64,000 bases of DNA, from NCBI GenBank assembly GCA_030704425.1, contig JAPDHM010000002.1:868001-932000 (forward strand), in the 5' to 3' direction. A program made the translations under genes and the position numbers. How positions within the stretch are numbered: position 1 is the first letter of the stretch; the number at the start of each line of letters is the position of its first letter. The stretch is from Rhodobacteraceae bacterium IMCC1909. GTDB taxonomy: Bacteria > Pseudomonadota > Alphaproteobacteria > Rhodobacterales > Rhodobacteraceae. The notes under the pieces were generated by a model, which was not told where the DNA came from, did not search any database, and saw only the letters and a program-made list of their open reading frames with translations. Shown here piece by piece: positions 6,037 through 7,342 of this stretch.

Positions 6037-6681
6037 ATGAAAACTCTCTATCTCCCTGGCATTCTTGCCATGGCTGCCGTCGTTGTGGCCTCCAACATCC
6101 TGGTTCAGTTCCTTCTTGGAGACTGGCTGACCTGGGGTGCATTCACCTATCCCATCGCCTTTCTCGTCACCGATGTGATGAACCGCGTCTACGGTGTTTC
6201 TGCCGCGCGTCGTGTGGTCTTTGCCGGCTTTGCCGTTGGTATTCTTTGTTCACTCATTGGCACGCAAGTCATGCTGCAAGGGGATGGCTATAGTTTCCCA
6301 GCGGTCACACTGCGCGTGGCTTTGGGATCTGGCACCGCCTTTCTGGTGGCTCAGTTGCTGGATGTTCAAATCTTCGACCGCTTGCGGCATGGCACATGGT
6401 GGCGGGCCCCTCTGGCCTCAACGCTGATCGGCAGTGCTGTGGACACCTTCCTCTTTTTCAGCATCGCTTTCTCCGCCCTCTTTAATGGACTGGAAACCAG
6501 CAATATTCCAGACTGGGCACAGGGTGCTGTGCCGCTGCTCGGCGCGGGTATGGAGTTGCCACTTTGGGCCTCGCTGGCCGTTGCAGATTGGCTTGTGAAA
6601 CTGTCCTTAGCTCTCATCGCTTTGGTGCCGTTCCGATTCTTGGTGCTATATCTTGTGGGACGTACAGCAAAAAATCATTGA
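6037..6681 (+). CDS. yhhQ: Queuosine precursor transporter (YhhQ/VUT family)
   Basis: A 214-residue inner-membrane protein with about six hydrophobic segments. The phrase YPIAFLVTDVMNRVYG matches the family motif in which a helix end carries TDxxNxxYG, and VALGSGTAFLVAQLLDVQIFDRLR matches the second conserved block. YhhQ imports queuine precursors (preQ0/preQ1) used for the wobble modification of GUN-anticodon tRNAs. The preQ1-I riboswitch directly upstream supports this function and indicates feedback control by the imported compound. The ATG at 6037 is fixed by both the aptamer geometry and the protein family. Confidence 0.93.
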   Translation: MKTLYLPGILAMAAVVVASNILVQFLLGDWLTWGAFTYPIAFLVTDVMNRVYGVSAARRVVFAGFAVGILCSLIGTQVMLQGDGYSFPAVTLRVALGSGTAFLVAQLLDVQIFDRLRHGTWWRAPLASTLIGSAVDTFLFFSIAFSALFNGLETSNIPDWAQGAVPLLGAGMELPLWASLAVADWLVKLSLALIALVPFRFLVLYLVGRTAKNH

Positions 6682-6740
6682 CTTTGTGTCTCTCTCTGGC
6701 AAGCTGTGGACAAATGTAACAGCTGAAAGGAGGTGATCCA

Positions 6741-6797
6741 GTGTCAAGAAAGGTATTGGAGAATGGAGTCGTAACAGGTTTGGAGGCGAATTTCTGA
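6741..6797 (+). CDS. Putative 18-codon leader peptide upstream of arfB
   Basis: A GTG-started frame of 18 codons (VSRKVLENGVVTGLEANF, then TGA). It is preceded by GAAAGGAGGTGATCCAG at 6725-6741, which is perfectly complementary over 17 bases to the conserved 3' end of alphaproteobacterial 16S rRNA and places GGAGG seven bases before the GTG. Between the stop and the terminator at 6870 lie two potential small hairpins (CTTGG 6805-6809 with CCAAG 6820-6824; GGTC 6836-6839 with GACC 6846-6849). A TTGACT hexamer at 6678-6683 could be a -35 element, with no clear -10. That it is translated is an inference from the ribosome-binding site; it could instead be a structured small RNA. Confidence 0.5.
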   Translation: MSRKVLENGVVTGLEANF

Positions 6798-6869
6798 GGC
6801 AACCCTTGGAGTTTTAACGCCAAGCTTGGGCAAACGGTCCTAAACGACCCGCCCTCCGCACAACTTTCG

Positions 6870-6898
6870 AAGGGCCGTCCTGTCTGGGCGGCCCTTTT
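6870..6898 (+). terminator. Rho-independent terminator between leader ORF and arfB
   Basis: AAGGGCCG (6870-6877) and CGGCCCTT (6889-6896) form an 8-bp stem with an 11-base loop, ending in a run of four T. It lies 73 bases after the leader ORF stop and about 22 bases before the arfB ATG, so it must be bypassed, or a promoter must lie within it, for arfB to be expressed from upstream. Confidence 0.8.
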
Positions 6899-6919
6899 CC
6901 TTTGTGGCATAGTAGCCCC

Positions 6920-7342
6920 ATGTTGCAAATCAATGACGAAATAATGATTCACGATTGGGAGCTGACCGAAAGTTTCACCCGTGCGCAGGGACCTGGAGGA
7001 CAGAACGTCAATAAAGTGTCGACCGCCGTCGAATTGCGCTTCGAAGCGGCCCGCAGCCCAAACCTCCCGGGCCCGGTAAAAACCCGACTCAAAAAATTGG
7101 CTGGCCGCAAGTGGACCTCCAATGGCGCCATAATTTTTCGCGTCGAAGACACCCGCTCACAGGCACGCAACCGAGAGATTGCAAAAGAGCGCTTGAAAGA
7201 GCTGATCCTTCAGGCTTTGATACGGCCAAAGCGCCGGATCGCCACACGCCCCACACTCGGATCGCAAAAACGCCGACTGGCAGGAAAAGTTCAGCGCGGC
7301 GTGGTCAAATCTCTGCGCGGAAAGGTGAAAGATGTCGAGTGA
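6920..7342 (+). CDS. arfB: Ribosome-rescue peptidyl-tRNA hydrolase ArfB (YaeJ)
   Basis: A 140-residue release-factor-like protein that hydrolyses peptidyl-tRNA on stalled ribosomes lacking a stop codon. The catalytic GGQ is at residues 27-29 in the context RAQGPGGQNVNKVSTAVELRF, and the basic carboxy-terminal tail (RRLAGKVQRGVVKSLRGKVK) is the part that enters the empty mRNA channel. The ATG at 6920 gives the usual start MLQINDEIMIHDWELTESF; an upstream TTG would add six unrelated residues and overlaps the terminator tail. Its last 11 bases overlap the start of the aminotransferase gene. Confidence 0.95.
   Translation: MLQINDEIMIHDWELTESFTRAQGPGGQNVNKVSTAVELRFEAARSPNLPGPVKTRLKKLAGRKWTSNGAIIFRVEDTRSQARNREIAKERLKELILQALIRPKRRIATRPTLGSQKRRLAGKVQRGVVKSLRGKVKDVE

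Follow-up and report, generated by a model that had tools for sequence, protein, structure and literature searches.

The DNA between a Vut_1 transporter gene and arfB in Rhodobacteraceae bacterium IMCC1909 very probably holds a small-RNA gene that stands on its own and is related to the CC2171 RNA, as judged by sequence comparison. Its predicted transcript, about 185–190 nt long, occupies positions 6712–6900 of the window (the whole stretch of 64,000 nucleotides that was analysed, and whose forward strand carries every feature placed here), with its start derived from the −10 element and its end from the terminator. We read it as a separate gene because it has its own promoter and its own terminator, covarying helices, a short ORF whose frame and stop appear selected and a complement to almost the whole 16S rRNA tail, and because it is independent of arfB. 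The best reading of these features is that of an RNA built to engage ribosomes, for which translation itself would matter. The whole statement, namely a CC2171-related RNA gene that works via ribosome engagement, is put forward tentatively, with confidence slightly short of even. Note that such an RNA is easily misread as the leader of the adjoining gene.

A predicted RNA gene beside arfB

The upstream neighbour is the Vut_1 gene (6037–6681), whose product we take to be a queuosine-precursor transporter, while arfB (6920–7342), encoding an RF-1-domain protein with GPGGQ, lies downstream and outside the RNA gene. The predicted small-RNA promoter (6678–6705) consists of a −35 element TTGACT (6678–6683), a 16-nt spacer and an extended −10 element TGG-CAAGCT (−10 at 6700–6705). 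Indeed, TTG followed after 15 to 18 nt by NANNNT was found at the promoter position in 139 of 142 distinct Rhodobacteraceae upstream regions, compared with a mean of 4.2 and a maximum of 8 matches in mononucleotide shuffles, and 97 upstream regions aligned on TTGA gave the consensus TTGACA..TGTGN-CANNCT. At the other end, the first-pass annotation had placed an 8-bp terminator 21 bases before the arfB ATG; a terminator does precede arfB, with a stem of 12 pairs (6869–6897) and a TTTT tail, and 22 bases separate it from the ATG at 6920. A GC stem followed by T residues recurs 164–212 nt past the Shine-Dalgarno sequence in 120 of 148 Rhodobacteraceae loci, and the remaining 28 showed by eye mostly a stem with interrupted T runs.

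In these 148 loci, among which a few species are represented twice, arfB lies within 500 nt of the element in 119, so that the fixed place directly upstream of one gene that a leader would occupy is missing in 29. More precisely, arfB is 564–2124 nt away in 13 loci that retain the element, and no arfB was seen near it in 16 (4 of which offer less than 600 nt of flank to inspect). When the ORFs following the terminator in non-adjacent loci were searched, 9 of 10 received a Pfam family: the genes on the same strand were EamA, amidase, hemerythrin, glyoxalase and flavodoxin-like, and those on the opposite strand were SpoIIAA-like (L016, L102), Crp-like (L121) and SLT (L128), the opposite-strand ORF of L119 being without a Pfam match. 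Outside Rhodobacteraceae, arfB was found within about 1.5 kb in 4 of 76 loci, which belong to two genomes; in this set of 76, many genomes contribute more than one locus.

The region before arfB itself suggests a separate start of transcription. Among 118 distinct arfB upstream regions, an A stands at −11 in 58%, TANNNT starts at −13 or −12 in 20 and 17 of them, respectively (at most 2 at any other position), and a Shine-Dalgarno-like motif occurs in 17. Since −10-like elements are placed at −13 or −12 in 37 of the 118 and Shine-Dalgarno-like motifs are few, the arfB mRNA looks leaderless and would start beyond the terminator, its −10 lying six or seven nt ahead of the ATG; following this position pattern, the predicted −10 of the window is CATAGT (6908–6913).

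These observations bear directly on the proposal of the first-pass annotation, in which the element would act in cis as a leader or attenuator of arfB. The frequent adjacency of arfB (119 of 148 Rhodobacteraceae loci), close behind the terminator, speaks for this proposal, as does a precedent in the family: in Rhodobacter sphaeroides the small RNA UpsM is likewise terminated ahead of a gene and doubles as a terminated 5′ leader, according to the accessible part of its description (PMC5089854). However, UpsM is part of the dcw 5′ UTR, whereas arfB seems here to be self-starting and the RNA also occurs in its absence. A conserved promoter belongs to the element, which is retained in the loci where arfB is displaced or was not found (29 of 148) and stands ahead of convergent genes in four checked loci, the arfB upstream regions look leaderless, and most loci in other families lack any arfB link. 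Attenuation of arfB is therefore not supported, and we regard it as very improbable. In addition, leader-peptide attenuators such as rnTrpL of Sinorhizobium meliloti share with the element a micro-ORF, hairpins and a terminator, but the element of the window has neither a fixed downstream gene nor a run of a single codon, and no antiterminator was noticed in passing.

Predicted ribosome-binding sequence, short ORF and RNA fold

The 17-base match to the 16S tail reported for positions 6725–6741 was confirmed (GAAAGGAGGTGATCCAG) and forms an extended Shine-Dalgarno sequence. Three copies of its 14-mer AAAGGAGGTGATCC were found in the genome, one in the window element and one on the antisense strand of each of two 16S genes. 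Likewise, the genome contains 23 GGAGGTGATC sites, among which more than 13 matching bases were found only in the window (17) and at the two antisense-16S sites (20), the next-best site having 13. By arithmetic, a given 17-mer is expected about 4e-4 times by chance on both strands of 3.27 Mb, and a chance match to 16S was rejected because, the antisense strands of the two 16S genes aside, the genome has no second 17-nt match. Among the 30 best BLAST loci, the complement retains 17 of 17 bases in 17 loci, 16 in 10 and 15 in 3. Pairing with the 16S tail past the usual core has also been described for extended Shine-Dalgarno starts in Staphylococcus aureus, where the accessible part of the report presents it as a general feature of mRNA initiation (PMC13009471), unlike the 17-nt match of the window, which is unique in its genome. 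As a separate observation, the stretch AGTCGTAACA (6767–6776, inside the ORF) resembles what we take to be part of the sense strand close to the 3′ end of 16S; this likeness is probably due to chance because relatives carry GTCGGAACA.

A complement this far beyond the needs of initiation, and retained across the class, could suggest that pairing with the tail is itself the function, the RNA being a 30S sponge or a 16S-tail partner in rRNA maturation, and the ORF serving merely to release the RNA. We consider this improbable, since the selected frame and stop described below indicate that more than pairing is kept, and since sequence comparison shows that the complementarity ends before the base adjoining GAAAGG in the 16S precursor.

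The 18-codon GTG ORF noted previously is present, although its GTG begins on the final base of the 17-nt match instead of after it, so that the ORF spans 6741–6797 including the TGA stop and encodes the peptide VSRKVLENGVVTGLEANF. Exactly 18 codons were counted in 128 of 134 distinct Rhodobacteraceae ORFs, none of which was shorter, while the other two frames have stops inside the same stretch in 50 and 54 of the 134. The ORF ends with TAG, TGA or TAA; TGG is absent even though the surrounding helix would tolerate it, with 0 occurrences against 18.2 expected under independence of the two positions and, among 35 ORFs that are under 80% alike, 0 against 5.7 (the sequences being related, these expectations are not formal probabilities). 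Codons 2–12 are conserved, partly at synonymous third positions, those of codons 10 and 12 being nearly fixed despite available synonymous changes, and codons 13–18 vary freely; no run of one codon kind was found in the 18 codons.

The same frame preference extends over the class. Among 49 distinct loci, the first stop falls 18–36 codons past the start in 45 of 47 when read in frame; frame +1 gives 9 of 48 and frame +2 gives 5 of 45, the latter being biased towards early stops by the conserved first codons themselves. These patterns indicate that the frame and the position of the stop are under selection and most of the peptide is not, and the ORF is probably translated, as far as such comparative patterns can tell.

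The selected frame and stop would also be expected of a plain small mRNA encoding a functional microprotein, and the recurrence of the N-termini VSR..LE.GVGT in Rhodobacteraceae and MSS[ED] in many other families is consistent with that view. In contrast, the freedom of codons 13–18, the constraint on the third positions of codons 10 and 12, the class-wide hairpin that is read in different frames among 25 loci found with a motif pattern (see below) and, in the window, a residue change at codon 11 accompanied by a compensating base on the opposite arm of a helix all disfavour a conserved microprotein as the main function, an alternative that we judge quite unlikely.

Regarding the fold, the region 6703–6900 (198 nt) folds better than 200 of 200 shuffles (−78.2 versus −61.7 ± 4.3, z −3.8), and the first 89 nt alone (6712–6800) fold no better than shuffles (z −0.26). 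When six helices were evaluated on 62 sequences, 84.9% of cells were paired (78.9 in shuffles), 24 pairs had changed on both sides (15.2 ± 1.7 in shuffles), and 222 cells showed changes on both sides (91 ± 13.5 in shuffles, at most 113 in slid versions); not one of the observed values was attained in 500 shuffles, with the reservation that the structure was taken from the same alignment as was tested, which favours the structure. The covariation is held by helices 3 to 6, whereas helix 1, between the Shine-Dalgarno and the internal anti-Shine-Dalgarno sequences, and helix 2, the start-codon hairpin, display one-sided changes only.

The start-codon hairpin (6737–6760) comprises 9 pairs with the GTG within its 5′ arm, has pair probabilities of 0.73–0.84 in the window and is paired in 94.8% of cells, its changes being one-sided. 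Downstream, a helix between GUCGU (6768–6772) and ACGAC (6844–6848) encloses the inner hairpins, with both sides changing in 6 of 7 consensus pairs and a pair probability of 0.39–0.42 within 6703–6900, and a hairpin with a CARC-type loop contains the stop codon (6790–6813), both sides changing in 9 of 10 pairs.

Helix 1 would be formed by CCTCC (6853–6857), an internal mimic of the 16S tail that may pair with GGAGG (6729–6733). Seven pairs to GGAGGUG are possible in 120 of 145 distinct Rhodobacteraceae loci, the window having 5. In this family the mean length of the longest stretch complementary to GGAGGUGA is 6.93, compared with 6.03 in shuffles and 6.1–6.2 for scrambled words; class-wide it is 6.67, which lies inside the scrambled-word range (6.25–6.73) and is no enrichment. 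This pairing was accordingly rejected as a class-wide mechanism, the scrambled controls showing enrichment in Rhodobacteraceae only. In the window, the probability of the helix is 0.22–0.25 within 6703–6900, 0.36–0.41 within 6712–6900, and 0.85–0.97 within 6712–6860, i.e., when the terminator is not yet made; in the lowest-energy fold of 6703–6900, GAAAG pairs with CUUUC and the helix is not formed.

The internal anti-Shine-Dalgarno sequence could also be viewed as part of a 3′ half that pairs with target mRNAs, in which case the element would be a conventional trans-acting small RNA comparable to Pos19 or Spot 42, with the micro-ORF secondary or the RNA dual-function. A small RNA with a terminator, whose anti-Shine-Dalgarno is enriched in Rhodobacteraceae, fits this description. 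The coding small RNA Pos19 of Rhodobacter sphaeroides, likewise small, terminated and equipped with an sORF, acts without translation of that sORF according to the accessible part of its report, and differs by its length (219 nt), its 150-nt sORF and its induction by stress, the comparison being made by description only (PMC5036791). Nevertheless, the most constant parts of the element are the ribosome site, the frame and the stop, and not a 3′ seed, and the anti-Shine-Dalgarno is not class-wide; we consider this alternative unlikely, yet the one that deserves most attention after an RNA built to engage ribosomes.

Probable relationship to CC2171 and occurrence in Alphaproteobacteria

Rfam searched at its own cut-offs gave zero matches in the window. 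The CC2171 model (RF01867) nevertheless aligns over its entire length (positions 1–159) to 6717–6895 with 44.6 bits and an E-value of 2.7e-8 (5.2e-8 in a search of the own genome), far below chance, and short of the gathering cut-off of 75 bits. The next matches in the own genome were the antisense-16S sites, with 16.9 bits. The same model matched 10 of 10 Rhodobacteraceae loci at 27–45 bits, 13 of 20 loci of a mixed set and 10 of 12 of another, 3 of these above the cut-off; at E ≤ 1 it also found something in 6 of 14 control genomes, one above the cut-off. When the consensus structure was laid on the window, the terminator and the 5′ part agreed, and the middle aligned poorly, with many non-standard pairs. 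Because 44.6 bits is less than 75, we call the element a distant relative of CC2171 and not a filed member. The two share a terminator, a nearly identical 5′ part (AAC..GAAAGGAGGUGAUCCAGUGUC) and the whole-length match, whereas the Rhodobacteraceae elements differ by their 18-codon ORF, their 16S-tail mimic and their location adjoining arfB.

The literature search, in which most subscription papers lay beyond reach, found no paper on CC2171 function. In their accessible parts, the Rfam 15 paper mentions one added covarying pair for RF01867, a Mesorhizobium huakuii study lists one transcript of the family, and Schrader 2014 describes most Caulobacter ncRNA regions as untranslated and two formerly predicted ncRNAs as translated. 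A possible further lead is the BjsR3 RNA of Bradyrhizobium, which has a terminator with relatives in Rhodobacterales, as the accessible text of its description states (PMC5082802).

Within Rhodobacteraceae, BLAST with a 233-nt stretch gave matches in 233 of 295 genomes, and a covariance model built from 62 loci identified the element in 102 of 120 genomes (91 of the 108 of good quality). The conservation in relatives on which the first-pass annotation had made its proposal depend was thus found, as the 16S complement, the ORF frame, the stop position and the hairpins are all kept. A pattern scan of named genomes added at least 118 further loci, including Ruegeria, Cereibacter, Roseobacter, Jannaschia and Sulfitobacter, with the Shine-Dalgarno and the first codons being part of the pattern, so that their conservation among these loci is built in. 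We also observed one genome (G306) with two different Rhodobacteraceae-type elements (L227 and L228), whose ORFs have 18 and 24 codons.

Over the class, 13 of 385 genomes gave a match to the Rhodobacteraceae model at E ≤ 1e-3, and 8 of these belong to other families, one match in another family (L160) being discounted as it does not resemble a member. A motif pattern demanding GGAGGTG, RTGTNNA and GRGCARCCT, features that are therefore built into its matches, was found in 25 of the 385 genomes, all outside Rhodobacteraceae, and 0 times in the reversed control. Nearly all of these 25 loci carry AAGGAGGTGATC, and by eye most have the AAC motif a few nt upstream and most a terminator; their ORFs count 22–26 codons in 25 of 25 and 26 codons in 17, and 26-codon ORFs make up 20 of 47 in the larger class-wide set. 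With R2, a model built from 22 of these loci, matches appeared in 155 of the 385 class genomes when the limit was E ≤ 0.1. At E ≤ 1e-4 there were 90, a figure that includes the 22 genomes from which the model came and leaves out the matches at 18–20 bits, among which antisense 16S occurs. Although built outside Rhodobacteraceae, R2 matches the window element at 40.5 bits.

Among 24 inspected R2 matches, the ORF has 18–36 codons in 21, the exceptions being L231 (56 codons), L236 (a long ORF) and L233 (which ends before a stop); six further class loci were inspected, among which L294 has 14 codons only. In a sample of the phylum, 65 of 299 genomes were matched, 59 of them in Alphaproteobacteria; among the 6 matches outside the class, 2 (family f186) resemble the element, whereas the other 4 (L287–L290) are normal genes with long ORFs. 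RNAs of the same anatomy are thus, as judged from these searches, widespread in Alphaproteobacteria.

Several loci merit a separate mention. Outside the class, L285 and L286 (family f186) carry AAGGAGGTGATC, 18-codon ORFs (MSRVKVFGQAAMSEGRSS and MSSVLKIRKSAMSEGRVY) and a terminator, and have no Rfam match; their likeness may stem from transfer, common descent or convergence. In three genomes (L287, L289 and L290), AAGGAGGTGATC stands as an unusually long Shine-Dalgarno directly before a long ORF of one kind (MS.AALNKV...WCPGCGHHG), presumably a 2-oxoacid oxidoreductase subunit. In family f174, L275, L278, L280 and L281 display GAAAGGAAGGTGATCC, a Shine-Dalgarno with one extra base, before ORFs of 23–24 codons. 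One 23-codon ORF of this family has a computed pI of 4.15–4.22 with three pK sets and 4.41 with a fourth set and with Biopython, and the other f174 peptides have 5.3–7.4. The accessible part of a study of S. meliloti describes SEP1 as a Western-positive product of 23 aa with the top translation efficiency of 54 candidates and a pI of 4.18 (PMC10117765), and a link between the f174 elements and SEP1 is possible.

Possible mechanism and biological meaning

For an RNA built to engage ribosomes, the following sequence of events can be proposed. A 30S subunit would dock on the extended Shine-Dalgarno, the start-codon hairpin would open and the ORF would be translated. The peptide would be mostly a by-product, and what would count is that a ribosome travels as far as a stop codon whose position is fixed, within or shortly after a hairpin. 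In Rhodobacteraceae, an RNA free of ribosomes would close through pairing of the Shine-Dalgarno with the internal copy of the 16S tail, and would thereby alternate between an open, ribosome-bound form and a closed form. Finally, the balance between the two forms may report or buffer the supply of initiating ribosomes and set the stability or the activity of the RNA. As an account of function, everything after docking and translation is offered as a conjecture, one that we would sooner doubt than assert.

Several results count against this explanation, namely the CC2171 score below the cut-off, the one-sided changes in the Shine-Dalgarno/anti-Shine-Dalgarno helix and in the start-codon hairpin, an anti-Shine-Dalgarno that is not class-wide, the shuffle-like folding of the first 89 nt, the mostly untranslated ncRNAs in the accessible part of Schrader 2014, and the ORFs of 14 (L294) and 56 codons (L231). 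Moreover, our confidence in it is lowered because the full-length fold of the window favours the closed form weakly. The idea of a ribosome sensor or sponge raised by the first-pass annotation survives insofar as ribosomes appear central, the 16S complement, the frame, the stop and the hairpins being conserved, and loses its tie to arfB. The RNA may regulate mRNAs, buffer 30S subunits or act as a sensor.

A product of 18–36 codons is short enough to remain largely in the exit tunnel of the ribosome. In its broadest and rather speculative form, which we think unlikely to hold in full, our proposal would be that of an old alphaproteobacterial RNA made for ribosome loading, with a maximal Shine-Dalgarno, a throw-away ORF, mostly of 18–36 codons, and a terminator, whose translated and untranslated states gauge or buffer free 30S subunits, and which in Rhodobacteraceae gained a competing copy of the 16S tail. 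If the element is indeed an RNA built to engage ribosomes, the Rfam RNA that came from a Caulobacter screen would represent a single lineage within an RNA of broad distribution. What stays constant in this RNA would be a near-complete complement of the 16S tail and a selected frame, little of the peptide being conserved. To translate an ORF without conserving its product would be uncommon as a design, and would provide a directly testable handle, in harmless laboratory strains, on how bacteria may sense or buffer their initiating ribosomes.
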